Shown: positions 10,128-50,735 of the stretch, piece by piece
How positions within the stretch are numbered: the stretch's first letter is position 1
Layout of the letters: each line of letters starts with the position of its first letter
NCBI GenBank assembly: GCA_029547025.1
Contig: JAKPQA010000005.1
Coordinates: 67,880-123,300 of the forward strand
Length of the DNA stretch: 55,421 nucleotides
Direction of reading: 5' to 3'
DNA from: Armatimonadota bacterium
GTDB taxonomy: Bacteria > Armatimonadota > Zipacnadia > UBA1398 > JAKPQA01
The notes under the pieces: generated by a model
Told to the model about the DNA's origin: nothing
What the model saw: only the letters and a program-made list of their open reading frames with translations
The model's database searches: none
Program-made: the position numbers and the translations under genes

Positions 10128-12449
10128 TCAGGATACCATGCGCCGGTACCGCCCGGCCAGTGACCGTCGGCGGCGCACCCACAGCACGAGTCCCGCAGGC
10201 ACCAGGACGGCGGCCAACACCTGGGCCCAGGCGGCTGTAAGGAGCGTCACGCGGACGAGCGTCTGGTGTTGCCCCGACGTGCGCGGACGCAGCCCCGTGG
10301 CCTGGGCCACGTGGTGCAGCAGGCTGGGCGCGATGAAGCGTGAGGGAGTCTCCTGGTGGCAGGCCGCGCAGACGCCGCGCTGATCGATGAGCGCTCGCTC
10401 GGCGTCGGTCAGTGGCCGCGCGAGGGGGAACCGACGGCTCATCTCTCCCGCTCCGGCCGTTGGGGCGGGAAGAGCCGGCAGTTGAGAACGCGTCCGCCGG
10501 GGGACGAGGGACCCGTCCGCGGTGCGGAGATCGACCACCAACGGTTCCGCCGGGTTCGAGCGGCCCGGCCCGGTAGGTGGGGCGTCTGGCACATGGCAGG
10601 ACTCGCACGTCCGGGCGGGCCCGCCCGTGTGGGGCTGGGCCGGGGTGAGGCTTAGCCCGGGTTCCTCGCCATCGTCCCCGGGCGGAAGGAAAGCGGTGTT
10701 CCGCACGGACGCCGCGCCGCTCGGGGCCATGACCGTCACGAGGCCGCAGTAGAGGGGCAACGCGGGGGAGATTCGACCCTCGCCGTTCACCATCAGGGGC
10801 GCCGGACCCCACTGGAGCACACCCGGAAGCATGCGGAACGCCCCGGGCACCCAGGCCTCGGCATCGGCCTCACCCGACGCGGTGCGGTTCTCGGGCCGTG
10901 CGTGCCAGTTCGCGGCGAGCGCCCAGTCGAAGGCTTGGCCGCCGGGCCGGAAGTCGGCCAACACGTTCATCCCGTAGTGCTGGGGCGCCCAGGGGGCGTG
11001 GCACGCGTAGCACTCCATGCGGTCGAGGTGCCTCGCCACGGTGTCCATCGAGACGCGCGCCGCCAGGGGCACGTCGGCTTGGCGCCAACGCAACCGGAGC
11101 GGGGCCAGTCGCACGTCCGCCCCTCCCGCGGTGTGCACCACAACCTCGTCGCCATCGCGGGTCACCTTGGGCATGGGGTTGCCTCGGGCCGTCAGCAGAT
11201 GGGGCTGGCCGTCGGCCTGCCCGTCCCCCTTGGCCGTCCCACGCCGCTCGGATCTGGGCAGGAGCGACCCGTATTCGTCGCCGTGACGGAGCGGGAGATC
11301 CCACGGGAAGGCGCGGGGAGTGCCGTGGCAGTCGGTGCACTCGATCTCGACCCGGGCCAGTGCGGCGCCGGCGAGGAAGCCGTCGCCATGCAGGTCGATG
11401 GTCGTGTGGCAGTCGCCGCAGAGCATGCCCTTCTCGAGGTGCGCGTCGGCCGGCATGGGTGAGTAGCGCTGCAGGTGGAGGCCCGGCTGCGGATTGCCGC
11501 GCCCGTCGAAGGGGCCGGCCGACGGTGACTCCACGAGGCCCTGGTAAGACATGGCGATGCGCTTGCTGCTGTAGTGGCATGCCGCGCACGTGTTGACCGG
11601 TATTCCCGAGTAGGTGACCTTCCCGGCGCGCACCGGGGCCGCGCGGCCCGACTGGATGGCGTGGACGAGCGGGTGCCCCGGCTGGTCCTTGGGAGTCGTG
11701 GGGTCGCTGCCCTCGTAGTACCCCTCGGTCCCGTAGGGGACATGGCAGGCGGAGCACCCCATGCCCCGGTGGTCGCCCCGCGCCTTCCAGCCACGCACCC
11801 CCAGGTGGCACCGGGCGCACTGGGTGCGGGCATAGGCGAAGCCGGCTCGGGCCGCGTCGCGGGCCACCTCAGCCGGCGTGGTCTGGGCCTCGGCCAGGCT
11901 CTGGTGCGATGGCGGGTAGGCCCGCGGCGCTTCACGGGCCAGATCAGCCATCACGCTGCGGTAACGGTCCGAGCCCCGGCGGCTGTTCTCCTCGTCGGGG
12001 TTCCTGGCGGCGTAGATGCCCCAGTCCCGCTGGGCGGCGTCGCCGGTGACCCAGGCCTGCAGCGCCCCCTCGATGAGGCCAGCCCCGGTCATCATCAGGC
12101 TGCTCCACTGGGTCTGAACTTCCTTCATGTGGCACGGGCCACAGGCCTTGCCGTTCACCCACGGGCTGCCGGGATCGGGACGGAACCCGCCGGCGCGCCC
12201 CATGGCGTGCGCGGCTGTGGTGGTTGAGGCACCGGGGTTGCCTCCATGGCACACGATGCACCCCGCTGGGTCGTCCAAGCCCCGGCCCTTGGCCCGGATG
12301 GCCGTCATCATGCCCGACTGGGCGTCGCGGATGCTCTCGATGCCGCGGTGGCAGGAGAGACAGCCCGACGGCCCGGGTCCGGCAGGCGTTGGCGAGGGGG
12401 GGCGCACGCCGACGGGGACCAGCGCCAGCGCCAGCATGAGCGGGCTCAC
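10128..12449 (-). CDS. Membrane-anchored undecaheme c-type cytochrome
   Basis: A 773-residue secreted cytochrome. It has a short hydrophobic signal (MSPLMLALALVPVGV) and eleven CxxCH heme-attachment motifs: CLSCH, CIVCH, CGPCH, CARCH, CSACH, CAACH, CGDCH, CTDCH, CYACH, CESCH and CAACH. One C-terminal transmembrane helix (WAQVLAAVLVPAGLVLWV) is followed by basic residues. The spacing of hemes resembles cytochrome c554/NrfA/OTR-like multiheme proteins, but I cannot place it in a named class. By family it would carry electrons on the periplasmic face or reduce a small oxyanion. The start is GTG 12449, with CGGAGGG six bases upstream. It lies 15 bases after the TIGR02757 gene and one base before the RIFT-barrel gene, a likely three-gene operon. 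Confidence 0.85.
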   Translation of the reverse strand: MSPLMLALALVPVGVRPPSPTPAGPGPSGCLSCHRGIESIRDAQSGMMTAIRAKGRGLDDPAGCIVCHGGNPGASTTTAAHAMGRAGGFRPDPGSPWVNGKACGPCHMKEVQTQWSSLMMTGAGLIEGALQAWVTGDAAQRDWGIYAARNPDEENSRRGSDRYRSVMADLAREAPRAYPPSHQSLAEAQTTPAEVARDAARAGFAYARTQCARCHLGVRGWKARGDHRGMGCSACHVPYGTEGYYEGSDPTTPKDQPGHPLVHAIQSGRAAPVRAGKVTYSGIPVNTCAACHYSSKRIAMSYQGLVESPSAGPFDGRGNPQPGLHLQRYSPMPADAHLEKGMLCGDCHTTIDLHGDGFLAGAALARVEIECTDCHGTPRAFPWDLPLRHGDEYGSLLPRSERRGTAKGDGQADGQPHLLTARGNPMPKVTRDGDEVVVHTAGGADVRLAPLRLRWRQADVPLAARVSMDTVARHLDRMECYACHAPWAPQHYGMNVLADFRPGGQAFDWALAANWHARPENRTASGEADAEAWVPGAFRMLPGVLQWGPAPLMVNGEGRISPALPLYCGLVTVMAPSGAASVRNTAFLPPGDDGEEPGLSLTPAQPHTGGPARTCESCHVPDAPPTGPGRSNPAEPLVVDLRTADGSLVPRRTRSQLPALPAPTAGAGEMSRRFPLARPLTDAERALIDQRGVCAACHQETPSRFIAPSLLHHVAQATGLRPRTSGQHQTLVRVTLLTAAWAQVLAAVLVPAGLVLWVRRRRSLAGRYRRMVS

Positions 12450-20218: not shown

Positions 20219-20295
20219 ATCATCACCCGGAGCGAGTGATACGAACGGTCTCCGGTGCGGCCCGGCGAACCATGGGGCCGCGCCTCGTGGTTCAT

Positions 20296-20315
20296 ACCAC
20301 GGCCATATCCGTGGT
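20296..20315. promoter_or_regulatory. Palindromic site in divergent intergenic region
   Basis: ACCACGG-N6-CCGTGGT is a perfect 7-bp inverted repeat. The octamer GTGGTTCA occurs twice around it (just left of it and at its right arm). It sits between the divergent desulfurase-like gene and glycyl radical enzyme gene, 16 bases upstream of a TAGAAT box (20331-20336), so it could be an operator serving both. No regulator gene is adjacent. Confidence 0.45.
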
Positions 20316-20380
20316 TCACACGGTATGCGGTAGAATGGGTTGGAGACGGCGATCGAGATCCCCGATGGAGAGGCAGCCCA

Positions 20381-22528
20381 GTGACTTCCCCCACCCCCCG
20401 CATTGTCCGCCTGAGGCAGCATGCCATCGATCACGGCCACTGGACGAATCACGAGCCGGCGCTCTACTGGGGTCGATCGTGGCAGACCACGGCTGGCGAG
20501 ATTTGGCACATCGTGCGCCGCGCCCGGGCTACGGCGCACATCCTCGAGAACCTGACGCCCGTGATCGACCCCGACGAGCTTCTGGTGGGCAAGTTCGCTC
20601 CGGTGACCCCCACCGAGGAGGAGCGAGCGGAGCTCGACCAGTGGGCCGCGATCGAGCGGCTGCTGCCCGTGGCCGCGGGCATTACGGCCCACCAGGCCGT
20701 GGACATCGAGCGGTTGCTGTTGTATGGCGTGTCGGGCATCAAGGAGCTCATCGAGGGCTACCGGCGCGAGTTGGATGTGGCCCGGCCGGAGGACCTGGAG
20801 AAGGACGCGTTCTACCGTGCGTGTTTGATCGCCCTCGACGGGCTAGTCGCGCTGGCGCGGCGGTACGCGGAGCGGGCGGTTGGGATGGCCGAGGCCGAGG
20901 AGGATCCGGCGCGGCGAGCCGAGCTGCTGGAGATCGCCACCGTCTGCCGCACCGTGCCCGAGTACCCGGCCACGACATTCCGCGAGGCTCTGCAGGCCGC
21001 GCACTTTCTCACCTTCGCCCTGTGTGCCGGGCAGCGGATGTTGTTGTTTCAGCTCGGCCGCCCCGATCGCTACCTGTTGCCTTTCTACCGCCGCGACATC
21101 GCCGCCGGGCGGATCACTCCCGAGCAGGCTCAGGAGCTCCTGGACTGCGCCGCAATACTGTTGAACGAGTATACACCCAAGGGTTTGGCCGTGGGCTACA
21201 TGGTCGGAGGCCGGGACTCGTCGGGCATGGATGTGTGCAACGAGCTGACCGAGATGCTGCTCGAGGGCATCGGCCACGTGCGGTTGTCTTACCCCGGGGT
21301 GGGCCTCTGCTGGACGCCCGAGACGCCACCCCACGTGATGCGCCTGGCCGGTCGTTTGCTGGCCGAGGGGTGCACGCATCCGGCCATCTTCCAGGATGAT
21401 GTGATCAGTGCTGGCCTCCGGGCAGCCGGAGTCTCGCCCGGCGAGTCCCGGTTGTATATCCACAGCACTTGTGTTGAGATCACGCCCATTGGCTCGTCCA
21501 ACGTGTATGTGGCGAGCCCGTATCTGAACGTCCTCCAGCTGCTGCACGACAGCATCGGGGTGCCGCCTCTGGGGGCCGAGGCGCCGGAACCCACTCCCCT
21601 GTATGCCAGTTTCGATGCCCTGCTGCATGAGCTGCGGCGGCGGATCGGCGACGCCGTCCGGGCCGCGGTGGTCGACACCAACGCAGCCCAGCTGTCCCGG
21701 AGACGCCATGGGGGAGCCCCGCTCCAGTCGTGCTTCGTCAACGACTGCCTCTCCCGCGGACTCGACATCGACCACGGCGGCGCCCGCCATAACTGGATCG
21801 AGCCGGTGTTTGTGGGCACGGCCAACGTCGCCGACTCGCTGGCGGCGATCCGGCAGTTCGTTTTCGAAGAGAAGGTCCTTTCGCTCCCCGAGCTGGCCCA
21901 TGCGCTGGCCCACGACTACGAGGGCCGCGAGGATCTTCGCGCCATGATGATCCATCGGGCACCCAAGTACGGGAACGACGACGACTCGGTGGATTCCCTG
22001 GTGGCTCGGCTCACTTCATGGTACTCGGAGGAGTGCCGCAAGTACCGCTCGGCCTTGGGGGGTACGTATCAGGCGGGCATGTTCTGCTGGATCCAGCATG
22101 GCGAGCTGGGCAGGGTGACGCGCGCTTCGGCCGACGGCCGGCGGGCGGGCCTGGCGCTGGCCGACGGGGCGGGGGCGGCCCAGGGCCGCGACTCGACCGG
22201 TGCGACGGCGGCGATTCTGTCGGCCACCAAGTGGGATCATCGACCCATGCTCGGTGGCATCGCGGTGAATGTGCGGTTCAGTCCTTCGCCGGATCGGGAG
22301 GCGCTGGGCGAGTTGGTCCGGCAGGTATGCCAGACGTACCTACAGCGGGGCGGCGCCGAGATTCAGGTGAATGTGGTCGACACCGAGACTCTCCGTGAGG
22401 CCAAACGCCATCCGGAGGACCACCGTGACCTGGTTGTGCGCATCGCGGGCTACAGCGACTACTTCGTCAGCCTGCCCGACGTTCTCCAGGATGAGGTCAT
22501 CGCCCGCACGGCTCACGAGTTGGCGTAG
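20381..22528 (+). CDS. Glycyl radical enzyme, pyruvate-formate-lyase family
   Basis: 715 residues from GTG 20381, with GGAGAGG seven bases upstream. The PFL-type barrel covers residues of about 10-580. The active-site cysteine is C364 in STCVEITPIG, with the adjacent Val-Glu pair typical of radical dehydratases and lyases. The C-terminal glycyl radical loop is RIAGYSDYF with Gly690. Both catalytic elements are intact. Family members cleave C-C, C-O, C-N or C-S bonds after a radical-SAM activase abstracts hydrogen from the glycine; no activase gene is in the window. The substrate is unknown: it lacks the paired Cys-Cys of true pyruvate formate-lyase, so it is not PflB. It is divergent from the V4R/desulfurase operon. 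Confidence 0.85.
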   Translation: MTSPTPRIVRLRQHAIDHGHWTNHEPALYWGRSWQTTAGEIWHIVRRARATAHILENLTPVIDPDELLVGKFAPVTPTEEERAELDQWAAIERLLPVAAGITAHQAVDIERLLLYGVSGIKELIEGYRRELDVARPEDLEKDAFYRACLIALDGLVALARRYAERAVGMAEAEEDPARRAELLEIATVCRTVPEYPATTFREALQAAHFLTFALCAGQRMLLFQLGRPDRYLLPFYRRDIAAGRITPEQAQELLDCAAILLNEYTPKGLAVGYMVGGRDSSGMDVCNELTEMLLEGIGHVRLSYPGVGLCWTPETPPHVMRLAGRLLAEGCTHPAIFQDDVISAGLRAAGVSPGESRLYIHSTCVEITPIGSSNVYVASPYLNVLQLLHDSIGVPPLGAEAPEPTPLYASFDALLHELRRRIGDAVRAAVVDTNAAQLSRRRHGGAPLQSCFVNDCLSRGLDIDHGGARHNWIEPVFVGTANVADSLAAIRQFVFEEKVLSLPELAHALAHDYEGREDLRAMMIHRAPKYGNDDDSVDSLVARLTSWYSEECRKYRSALGGTYQAGMFCWIQHGELGRVTRASADGRRAGLALADGAGAAQGRDSTGATAAILSATKWDHRPMLGGIAVNVRFSPSPDREALGELVRQVCQTYLQRGGAEIQVNVVDTETLREAKRHPEDHRDLVVRIAGYSDYFVSLPDVLQDEVIARTAHELA

Positions 22529-45778: not shown

Positions 45779-45920
45779 CGCAGTCACCTGCCGTCGTCCG
45801 GGGCGGCCGTCTCGATCCTCAGCGAGGATCGAGTGGCCTTCCTGGTGAAGAACGACCCCGTTGCGAACTAGTTCGCCAGGCCATCGAGGAGTCCTGGCGA
45901 TTCCGGAGAGGACCCGCCCC

Positions 45921-48275
45921 ATGGGCACCCCTACCCTGGAAGCGACCGAGGCGCCATTTCGCGTGGCAGAGGGCCGCATCGATGCCCTGAAGCGGGTGGC
46001 ACTGGCCGGACCGGACACCCCCATCGGCTTCCGCTGCTGGGCCCATTGCCAGGCCGCGATCGACCATGCGGGCGAGCCCCTCGTGATTCGCCGCGCCCAC
46101 GCGCTGGCTCTGACCCTCAAGACTTTTCCCGCCATCGTTGGGCCTCTGGATGTGGTCGCGGGGACGCACCTGTTTGGGGAGAAGGCCGGGCGCGATAGCG
46201 GATTCGACTTCGTCGAGTTTGCCCCTCACTACTACGACCCGCCCGGCGATGCGCTTCGGGCGGGCCTGGAGCACACCGAACTCACTCCCGAACAGCGCGC
46301 GACAGTCCTCTCGTGTGTGGGCCGTCACCACGAGCTTCTCCTCGGCACGGCGACTGCTCCCTCACCGCCCGAAGAGGTCCGCGCGGCGACCGAGGCCCAC
46401 GTTCTCTTCGGTGGGGGCTATTGCGTGAATCATAGTGTTCGCGACTATGGCCTCGTGGTCTGCAGGGGCTTCCGCGCCCTGGCGGAGGAGATCGACACCG
46501 CCCTGGCCGCGTGCCGGATCGAGGACCCCGACGACATCCAGAAGCTGGTCTTCTACCGTGGTGCCTCGGCGGTGGCACACGCGGCCGAGGGCCTGGGCAG
46601 GCGCTATGCCGAGGTCGCCCGGGCCGAGGCGGCGACGTGTGCCGACCCCGCCCGTCGCGCCGAACTCGAACGAATGGCGGAAGCATGCGAGCGCGTGCCG
46701 GCGGAGCCGGCCCGCACGCTCTTCGAGGCCGTCCAGGCCATCTGGTTGGCCCACGCCATCACCTGCTGCGAGGACCACATCAACGCCAACTCCATCGGCC
46801 GGCTCGATCAGATCCTCCAGCCGTACTATGAGGCCGATGTCACCGCAGGCCGGATGGACCGCGAGGGTGCCATCCAGCTCATTGAGCTGCTATGGCTGAA
46901 GCTGTACCGCGACTATGACGTGCAGCAGGTCGTGCTGAGCGGTCAGCGTCCCGACGGCACCGACGCCACCAACGACATGACCTACATCTGCCTGGAGGCC
47001 ACCCGCCGCCTGGGCTTGGTGCGATGCCTGTCGGTGCGCCTGCACAAGGGTTCGCCGCGGAAGCTGCTCGAGGAGGCCACCGACCTGCTGAGCCAGGGAG
47101 GCGGCATTCCGTTCTTCTTCAACGACGACGTCATCGTACCGGCCCTCTGCGACAAGGGGATCCCCCTCGAGGACGCTCGCGACTACGCCGTCATCGGGTG
47201 TGTTGAGATCACGATTCCCGGTCGAACCAACCCCCACGCGGTGAGCCACAACACCAACTTGGCCAAGTGTCTCGAACTTGCCCTGCACGATGGCTTCGAC
47301 CCGGCCACCGGTCGGCAAGTCGGACCGCACACGGGTCTTCTCGAGTCCTTCGGCTCCATGCGCGAGGTGTTTGAGGCCTACAAGCGTCAGGTCGAGCACT
47401 TCACCCGCATCGGCGCGTTCCTGTCCAACGCGGGGGAACAGCAACAGGAGTCCACTTTTCCGCTCCCGTATGAGTCCATCCTGACCGCTGACTGCATCGC
47501 TCGTGGGAGGGACATCACGGCCGGAGGCGCACGGTACAACTACCATTCGTGCTCGGCCATCGGGATCCCGAATGTGGCGGACTCGCTGGCGGCGCTGGAC
47601 CGCTTGGTGTTTGGCACACGGACGATCGGGGCGGAAGAGCTACGACGGGCGCTGCTGGCCGACTTCGAGGGCTACGAACCTCTGCGGCAGATGCTGCTCC
47701 ATTCGGCCCCCAAGTACGGGAATGACCGGGAGGAAGTGGATGCGCTGGCGGCCGAGGTCTCGGCCCACTTCTGCGAGACCCTGGCCGGCCACCGCGCGCG
47801 GTTCAACGGCCGGTTCCACGCACACCTGTTCTCCTTCCTGTGGCATGTCGATCCCTTCGGGCGGAGCACCGGGGCGCTCCCCGATGGCCGGAAGGCGGGG
47901 CAGCCGCTGGCCTACAGCCTTTCACCCACCCAGGGGCGGGATGAGCAAGGCGTCACCGCCGTGCTCAACAGCCTCGCTGCCATTCCGCATGACATGGCCG
48001 CCGCGTCGAGCTCGGCCATCATCGAGCTCGCGCCGTCATTCTTCGCCGGCGAAGGACGGAATCGGTTCGTCGATCTGCTGCAGTCAGCCATCGCACGAGG
48101 GATCGGGCAGATGCAGTTCAACGTGGTCACTGCCGAGAGGCTGAAGCTCGCCCAGGAAGATCCCGAGAACTATGGCAATATCGTGGTCCGCGTCTCCGGA
48201 TTCAGCCAGCGGTTCGCCTCGATCGGCAGGGAGCTGCAGGATCACATCATCGCCCGCGTCAAACACGAGCACTGA
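45921..48275 (+). CDS. Glycyl radical enzyme, pyruvate-formate-lyase family, second copy
   Basis: 784 residues from ATG 45921, after GAGAGGA. PFL-type barrel with active-site C427 in VIGCVEITIPG and glycyl radical loop RVSGFSQRF with Gly760. Conserved blocks include LLHSAPKYGND, DPFGRSTGALPDGRKAGQ and GIGQMQFNVV. The Cys-Val-Glu centre and Arg/Gly-rich DGRKAG loop are those of radical lyases and dehydratases rather than pyruvate formate-lyase. It is longer than the 715-residue copy at 20381 and shares the same LLHSAPKYGND-type block (there MIHRAPKYGND), so the two are paralogues. Substrate unknown; no activase lies nearby. A GACCC-GAAG-GGGTC hairpin follows at about 48285. Confidence 0.87.
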   Translation: MGTPTLEATEAPFRVAEGRIDALKRVALAGPDTPIGFRCWAHCQAAIDHAGEPLVIRRAHALALTLKTFPAIVGPLDVVAGTHLFGEKAGRDSGFDFVEFAPHYYDPPGDALRAGLEHTELTPEQRATVLSCVGRHHELLLGTATAPSPPEEVRAATEAHVLFGGGYCVNHSVRDYGLVVCRGFRALAEEIDTALAACRIEDPDDIQKLVFYRGASAVAHAAEGLGRRYAEVARAEAATCADPARRAELERMAEACERVPAEPARTLFEAVQAIWLAHAITCCEDHINANSIGRLDQILQPYYEADVTAGRMDREGAIQLIELLWLKLYRDYDVQQVVLSGQRPDGTDATNDMTYICLEATRRLGLVRCLSVRLHKGSPRKLLEEATDLLSQGGGIPFFFNDDVIVPALCDKGIPLEDARDYAVIGCVEITIPGRTNPHAVSHNTNLAKCLELALHDGFDPATGRQVGPHTGLLESFGSMREVFEAYKRQVEHFTRIGAFLSNAGEQQQESTFPLPYESILTADCIARGRDITAGGARYNYHSCSAIGIPNVADSLAALDRLVFGTRTIGAEELRRALLADFEGYEPLRQMLLHSAPKYGNDREEVDALAAEVSAHFCETLAGHRARFNGRFHAHLFSFLWHVDPFGRSTGALPDGRKAGQPLAYSLSPTQGRDEQGVTAVLNSLAAIPHDMAAASSSAIIELAPSFFAGEGRNRFVDLLQSAIARGIGQMQFNVVTAERLKLAQEDPENYGNIVVRVSGFSQRFASIGRELQDHIIARVKHEH

Positions 48276-50251: not shown

Positions 50252-50360
50252 CGGCGTCCCCTCGGGTTGGGCGGCATCGGGAGTGTCGTGAAACAGTTCA
50301 ATGCCCGACGGGGGCGTCCCTCCTCGGCGCCGGCCTGTTCCCCGGGCCGTGCCCCAAGGC

Positions 50361-50366
50361 TATACT
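50361..50366 (+). promoter_or_regulatory. -10 box of tRNA-Leu promoter
   Basis: TATACT 12 bases before the first tRNA base places the transcription start just ahead of the mature 5' end. The -35 region is weak. Probable promoter by position. Confidence 0.5.
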
Positions 50367-50377
50367 GGACCGGGTGT

Positions 50378-50735
50378 GCCCAGGTGGTGGAACCGGCAGA
50401 CACAAGGGACTGGATGGCGGTCTCCCCGCTGGTGACAGTGGGGTAATAAACCGGGTGAACTCAGGGAAGGCTAAGTCGGCTGGTGCGACGCCGGGTGCCG
50501 ATATGCTGATCCTGAGCCAAGCCCGGGGGGAAACCCCCGGGAAGGTGCAGAGACTATGGCTGAGCCTGGGGCGGCTGCGTTGGCCGCGACGGCAATACCG
50601 CCACTCGAGCGCCCGGCATCTTCGCCGCCTGGTTCGCGGAGATGAAGAGATAGTCCACCCCCCCGGGAAACCGGGGGATATGTGTAAAATCCTTTGGCCC
50701 ATGCGGCCGTGCGGGTTCGAGTCCCGCCCTGGGCA
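50378..50735 (+). tRNA. tRNA-Leu(UAA), interrupted by group I intron
   Basis: 5' exon 50378-50411, 3' exon 50685-50735. The acceptor stem GCCCAGG/CCTGGGC pairs perfectly, the T arm is GCGGG-TTCGAGT-CCCGC, and the D stem is GTG/CAC. A long variable arm (GGCC-CATGC-GGCC) marks a class II tRNA. After removing the intron the anticodon arm reads AGGGA-CTTAAAA-TCCTT: a 7-base loop with UAA anticodon. The discriminator base is A (50735) and CCA is not encoded. Without the intron the anticodon loop cannot form, so splicing is required for function. Confidence 0.93.
50412..50684 (+). other. Self-splicing group I intron (IC3-like) in tRNA-Leu
   Basis: 273 nt, no open reading frame of its own. It lies between U33 and U34 of the tRNA and ends with G (50684). 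P1 is clear: the 5' exon ...GGGACU pairs with the internal guide GGTCTCC (50419-50425) with a terminal U-G wobble at the splice site. The core elements are readable in order: P as AACTCAGGGAAGGCT (50458), Q as ATCCTGAGCCAAGCC (50509), R as GTGCAGAGACTA (50545) and S as GATGAAGAGATAGTCC (50641). R and S pair through GACTAT/ATAGTC (P7). GC-rich stem-loops near 50524-50543 and 50657-50676 would be peripheral helices. Confidence 0.92.

Follow-up and report, generated by a model that had tools for sequence, protein, structure and literature searches.

A group I intron at site 33/34 of a tRNA-Leu(UAA) gene in an Armatimonadota genome, and its scattered relatives

How did a tRNA gene of a bacterium outside the Cyanobacteria come to be interrupted by a group I intron, and is it the intron known from cyanobacteria? 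The question is raised by a tRNA-Leu(UAA) gene within a 55,421-nt stretch of the genome of an uncultivated Armatimonadota bacterium (assembly GCA_029547025.1, contig JAKPQA010000005.1), hereafter the window. In cyanobacteria and plastids, tRNA-Leu(UAA) is a classic host of group I introns (PMC4476775, PMC4033280). A review names cyanobacteria and alpha- and beta-proteobacteria as hosts (PMC4033280), and intron cases in tRNA-Ile2 and tRNA-fMet have also been noted (PMC8450103).

The split gene and the fold of its intron

A tRNA-Leu(UAA) gene occupies positions 50378-50735 of the window, and 273 nt of it, 50412-50684, are a group I intron. The Rfam model RF00028 (Intron_gpI) gave a full-model match at 50402-50677 with 70.1 bits (E 8e-16; cut-off 50), the sole group I match in the 6.3-Mb genome. 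ARAGORN did not detect the split gene in its default mode. In intron mode it reported tRNA-Leu(taa) with a 273-nt intron placed between ggact and taaaa, and the exons (50378-50411 and 50685-50735) add up to a spliced tRNA of 85 nt. An earlier sequence-only reading had proposed that a group I intron interrupts a tRNA-Leu(UAA) gene here, in a genome that is not cyanobacterial, and had named the Rfam model as the check; both the Rfam score and the ARAGORN intron mode bear it out, and its coordinates, intron length and 85-nt product agree with the ARAGORN exons. No endonuclease gene was recognized within the intron (50412-50684). The features of the locus are as follows.

50359..50366, + strand: -10-like box GCTATACT, 11 nt before the tRNA (visual comparison of upstream sequences)
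50378..50411, + strand: tRNA-Leu(UAA) 5' exon, ending ..GGGACU (U33) (ARAGORN intron mode; spliced body 88-91% identical to intact genes of the same order)
50407..50423, + strand: P1, 5' exon GGACU (50407-50411) with guide GGUCU (50419-50423), U33-G50419 at the splice site (paired in 16/16 sequences)
50412..50684, + strand: group I intron, 273 nt, 66% GC (RF00028, 70.1 bits; covariation; clade 97/96 with 15 homologues)
50424..50443, + strand: P2 hairpin (both-side changes in 5/7 pairs)
50451..50457, + strand: P3 5' strand, partner 50610-50616 (covariation alignment)
50460..50516, + strand: P4-P5 domain, P4 being 50460-50465 with 50511-50516 (compensatory A-U to G-C in P4, C-G to G-C in P5)
50517..50545, + strand: P6 and P6a hairpin (four P6a pairs with both-side changes)
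50550..50556, + strand: P7 5' strand, guanosine-binding helix, partner 50651-50656 (97-98% of cells paired, nearly invariant)
50557..50609, + strand: extra hairpin domain between P7 and P3', in the place of P7.1/P7.2 of other subgroups (in Myxococcota homologues a helix with two doubly changed pairs and a common loop motif)
50610..50616, + strand: P3 3' strand (covariation alignment)
50617..50645, + strand: P8 hairpin (both-side changes in 7/9 pairs; 82% of cells paired)
50651..50656, + strand: P7 3' strand, UAGUCC (covariation alignments)
50657..50658, + strand: P9.0 5' side AC, partner GU 50682-50683 adjoining the terminal G (both pairs change on both sides, A-U/G-C and C-G/U-A/A-U)
50660..50677, + strand: P9 hairpin with GAAA loop (both-side changes in 5/7 pairs)
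50684..50684, + strand: terminal G of the intron (omega-G), invariant in 16 sequences
50685..50735, + strand: tRNA-Leu(UAA) 3' exon, beginning U34 A35 A36 (ARAGORN intron mode; comparison with intact genes of the same order)

Boxes of the form GCTATRNT, resembling GCTATACT, were seen by eye upstream of most Myxococcota and some Elusimicrobiota homologues. A sigma-70 consensus scan gave no match, and GCTATACT is at most a putative promoter element. Elsewhere the window encodes two glycyl-radical (pyruvate formate lyase-like) enzymes (20255-22528 and 45861-48275) and a multihaem cytochrome-like protein (10128-12449).

The intron was aligned with 10 Myxococcota-type homologues, and the core helices P3-P8, including the P3/P7 pseudoknot, are present in it. 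Covariation was scored against a structure read by hand from these same sequences, so the paired percentage is partly circular: 96.6% of cells were paired, against a shuffled mean of 88.5 and 31-51% for slid structures. The double changes are the stronger evidence for the fold. Twenty-six pairs were changed on both sides, compared with a shuffled mean of 12.1, and none of 500 shuffles reached as high a count. Covariation supports P2, P4, P5, P6a, P8, P9 and P9.0. After adding five Elusimicrobiota-type introns (16 sequences; P1, P2, P4-P7 and P9.0 counted), 98.5% of cells were paired, and both P9.0 pairs switched together. The extra hairpin between P7 and P3' is kept in the Myxococcota-type introns, is larger in the window intron and is absent from the Elusimicrobiota ones. 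Such a hairpin is unusual for subgroup IC3, to which the window intron shows a general resemblance only. By eye, P10 is weak or missing. The exons of tRNA introns can be held together by the anticodon stem; such a requirement in Anabaena is the subject of Zaug 1993, a title cited in PMC3984707.

The intron lies between tRNA positions 33 and 34, with the U33-G pair in all 16 bacterial sequences, as the sequence-only reading had placed it in preference to 34/35. The U-G pair in P1, the P7 pairing and the terminal G that it had picked out correspond to U33-G50419, a complete P7 and G50684. From these computed splice sites, the precursor RNA would take up the group I core fold, and the guide GGUCU would pair with the end of the 5' exon, GGACU, leaving the U-G pair at the cut. 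Guanosine bound in P7 would attack after U33; the freed 5' exon would then attack behind the terminal G, so that CU is ligated to UAAAA and the anticodon loop with UAA is re-formed.

Relatives of the intron in other bacteria

A pattern scan of 84,980 species genomes returned 15 loci, 12 of which are real 33/34 introns in tRNA-Leu(UAA). Eight of the 12 reach the Rfam cut-off; the model scored the other four (L010, L012, L015 and L017) below this value or failed to find them. The named hosts belong to Elusimicrobiota and Myxococcota; one host is labelled only Proteobacteria and three only bacterium, and two of these three fall in the Elusimicrobiota scan set. Scans by phylum used the exact pattern, and their counts are lower bounds: 1 true case per 291 genomes in the host's own phylum, 7 per 379 around a Myxococcota member and 6 per 295 around an Elusimicrobiota member. 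Seven candidates (L011, L013, L018, L072, L075, L076 and G278) were chance pattern matches and were dropped. The ARAGORN calls Pyl(cta) for L008, L016 and L019, and Thr or Asp for L069 and L070, were off-register and are overruled by exon alignment. RF00028 was under its cut-off or silent on clear tRNA group I introns (L010, L012, L015, L017 and L239), so surveys that use this model undercount. Another genome of the host's phylum (G063) carries a tRNA-Ile(CAU) intron at 33/34 (L002) as well as a tRNA-Leu(UAA) intron at 34/35 (L006). At one further locus (L005, in G083) the 3' half of a Met-like tRNA comes after a strong group I match, but no 5' half could be clearly made out upstream; the gene may have decayed or been rearranged.

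A maximum-likelihood tree was built from 44 introns and 196 columns, with no cyanobacterial sequence included. The 16 bacterial 33/34 introns, including that of the window, form one clade (97/96) with a common site and guide, and together with tRNA-Asn(GUU) introns they form a larger clade (100/98). The Asn introns (L003, L069 and L070) are the sister group of the window's clade and thus its nearest kin. Two of the three have a P7-P3' hairpin by eye; they differ in the tRNA and in the site, 35/36. Outside these clades lie the 34/35 introns of phages, plasmids and the other genome of the host's phylum. Three viral 33/34 introns also fall outside, implying that the site shift occurred more than once. 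The window intron branches alone, and joining it to Myxococcota (AU p 0.40) or to Elusimicrobiota (0.44) was not rejected; in an earlier, larger tree, the window intron, the Asn introns and two Leu groups were not separated inside the same 100/98 clade.

Among known systems, the cyanobacterial and plastid trnL intron (Kuhsel 1990, Xu 1990, Paquin 1997) is like that of the window in host tRNA, in its place in the anticodon loop, in being small and endonuclease-free, and in its general core. The window intron differs from it in site (33/34 instead of 34/35, with the guide shifted to match), in the extra P7-P3' hairpin and in its non-cyanobacterial host. For the cyanobacterial tRNA-Leu(UAA) intron we take the site to be 34/35. 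The position is given more loosely in PMC4033280. From the 34/35-type introns of phages and plasmids the window intron is separated by its clade. Introns in tRNA-Ile(CAU), tRNA-fMet and tRNA-Arg of Azoarcus, Agrobacterium and Synechocystis (PMC8450103, PMC4033280) occupy other tRNAs and other sites. The Beggiatoaceae offer a nearer parallel: putative tRNA-Leu(UAA) group I introns were reported in Candidatus Maribeggiatoa and Thiomargarita nelsonii (PMC4853749). They share the tRNA and an occurrence outside Cyanobacteria, and differ in lying in Gammaproteobacteria, with structure and type left undetermined in that report. In view of these reports, a claim of a first case outside Cyanobacteria fails.

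Phage and plasmid introns at 34/35

Two pattern scans of IMG/VR found at least about 60 tRNA-Leu genes split at 34/35 (e.g., L079, L081, L083, L086, L181 and L193), often within tRNA arrays. The viral 34/35 pattern also matched tRNA-Phe genes, which were filtered out. ARAGORN read Leu(taa) with the junction gactt/aaaat in 55 of 61 extracted sequences, among them the cellular L006 and phage Atu_ph07, and RF00028 passed five of nine viral loci tested. At least three viral tRNA-Leu(UAA) loci (L073, L074 and L077) are split at 33/34. An HNH-like reading frame was found upstream of the 3' splice site in eleven further viral loci, and in seven of them (L091, L099, L110, L114, L128, L158 and L166) a tRNA-Leu 5' exon stands ~670-930 nt upstream of the 3' splice site with that frame in between. 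Three tested fragments matched Pfam HNH families, and two of these matches exceeded the cut-off. With HNH frames between their tRNA-Leu exons, these seven viral introns look like mobile homing introns in phage tRNA genes.

In the isolated Agrobacterium phage Atu_ph07 (MF403008.1), whose host is a laboratory strain (A. tumefaciens C58), the tRNA-Leu(UAA) gene at L239:3030-3307 is split at 34/35 and is not annotated as a tRNA; its intron scores 48.9 bits, just below the Rfam cut-off of 50. A 735-kb phage (L245, LR756501.1) likewise has an unannotated tRNA-Leu(UAA) gene with a 34/35 group I intron. Plasmid loci of Bradyrhizobium (L242), Candidatus Vallotia (L241) and Tritonibacter mobilis (L240) comprise tRNA-Leu(UAA) genes interrupted at 34/35 and one tRNA-Thr(UGU) whose intron lies at 36/37. 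All phage introns known to a 2014 review were in protein genes (PMC3984707). In the open-licence literature we found no description of the 33/34 clade, of the tRNA-Asn introns or of phage tRNA introns.

Two statements of the sequence-only reading have to be corrected in this light. It had held that proteobacterial cases sit only in other tRNAs, which is contradicted by the tRNA-Leu(UAA) introns of Maribeggiatoa and Thiomargarita (PMC4853749) and of the Bradyrhizobium and Vallotia plasmids. It had also overstated the rarity of the locus, given 33/34 introns in Myxococcota and Elusimicrobiota, and 34/35 introns in plasmids, in the host's phylum and in many phages. Since both types occur in other bacteria and phages, the window intron is one member of a dispersed family and no isolated oddity.

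Origin of the intron and the reading of UUA

By a strict pattern, 48 of 60 relatives, both same-order genomes among them, have an uninterrupted tRNA-Leu(UAA) gene. The spliced tRNA body of the window shows 91% and 88% identity with the intact genes in these two genomes, and 82% at most with the intron-bearing Myxococcota tRNAs. That the body is nearest to intact genes of its own order points to a gain of the intron alone, and most likely the host lineage acquired it without its tRNA. By the splice site, the 3' exon reads UCCUUUG, as in several Myxococcota, where the same-order relatives have UCCCCUG; the match would fit co-conversion, for which these few substitutions are weak evidence. No synteny of the tRNA locus with the same-order relatives was found in 3-kb loci.

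Could the locus instead hold an ordinary cyanobacterial or plastid tRNA-Leu intron, transferred from a cyanobacterium, with 33/34 a mere reading error? Host gene and broad core type are alike, and 34/35-type introns do exist outside cyanobacteria. However, the base after U33 is G in the window and mostly C in the homologues, so U34 must derive from the 3' exon. The GGUCU guide stands in the 33/34 register in 16/16 sequences, whereas 34/35 introns have GAGU-type guides, and the two sets lie on opposite sides of the tree (window clade 100/98, in a tree that holds no true cyanobacterial sequence). We consider this origin very unlikely. Still less credence can be given to another splice register that would produce a different anticodon, such as Leu(CAA) or a Phe-like GAA. 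A cut ..CUC/..GU/AAAA in the C-bearing homologues would indeed yield CAA, but C would then be the last base of the 5' exon and U that of the intron, contrary to group I rules. The window has G at the base concerned, the P9.0 pairs adjoining the terminal G covary, and a separate intact tRNA-Leu(CAA) exists.

The fragmented bin, with a contamination estimate of 4.8%, and a flanking MlaD-like protein just 24% identical to its best matches might suggest a broken or contaminating sequence, that is, a tRNA pseudogene or a mis-binned contig. Yet the best matches of this protein lie in the same two same-order genomes to which the exon body is nearest, which argues against contamination; every core helix is intact and the gene is the sole Leu(UAA) copy. 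Such an artifact is hardly to be expected. Somewhat more room, though not much, is left for descent from an ancestral intron of bacterial tRNA-Leu(UAA) that was passed on vertically and disappeared from most lineages. The same insertion point recurs in three phyla or more, with the host, Myxococcota and Elusimicrobiota introns on separate branches; on the other hand, the intron occurs in 1 of 291 genomes of the host's phylum and about 2% elsewhere, both same-order relatives are intact, and many independent losses would be required. Very likely, then, a real and probably autocatalytic group I intron separates U33 from U34 in the one tRNA-Leu(UAA) gene of this genome, an intron belonging to a distinct, scattered lineage of tRNA-Leu 33/34 and tRNA-Asn 35/36 introns and gained, most likely, by transfer of the intron alone into the resident tRNA gene. 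The route may have been homing, with an endonuclease since lost or supplied externally, or reverse splicing.

Intact tRNA-Leu genes of the genome carry the anticodons GAG, CAA, UAG and CAG. No intact tRNA-Leu(UAA) gene was found in the assembly, from which, at 96% completeness and in 369 contigs, a second intact copy could be missing. The split gene is probably the sole reader of UUA, and since no other tRNA-Leu(UAA) turned up in this 96%-complete assembly, it presumably must splice for UUA to be read. Among the 48 tRNA matches in the genome, tRNA-Tyr(GUA) and tRNA-Thr(GGU) were not found either, which may reflect missing contigs or more interrupted genes. UUA accounts for 4 of 13,365 codons in window genes, as picked approximately by third-position GC. 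Because UUA is nearly absent and only one tRNA was found to read it, the intron might act as a switch on rare-codon genes: guanosine-dependent splicing may tie the amount of available tRNA-Leu(UAA) to the state of the cell, with an effect like that of the Streptomyces bldA tRNA. We think this a long shot.

Since annotation tools miss split genes, these bacteria seem to lack tRNAs that they in fact have. The tRNA-Leu(UAA) intron of cyanobacteria and plastids is the textbook case of an ancient, vertically inherited intron. An independent replicate is offered by a second lineage, which uses the neighbouring site of that tRNA, is spread over several phyla and was apparently acquired without the tRNA. 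For the old question of how tRNA introns spread, phage tRNA introns at 34/35, some with HNH endonucleases, provide a concrete and testable vehicle.
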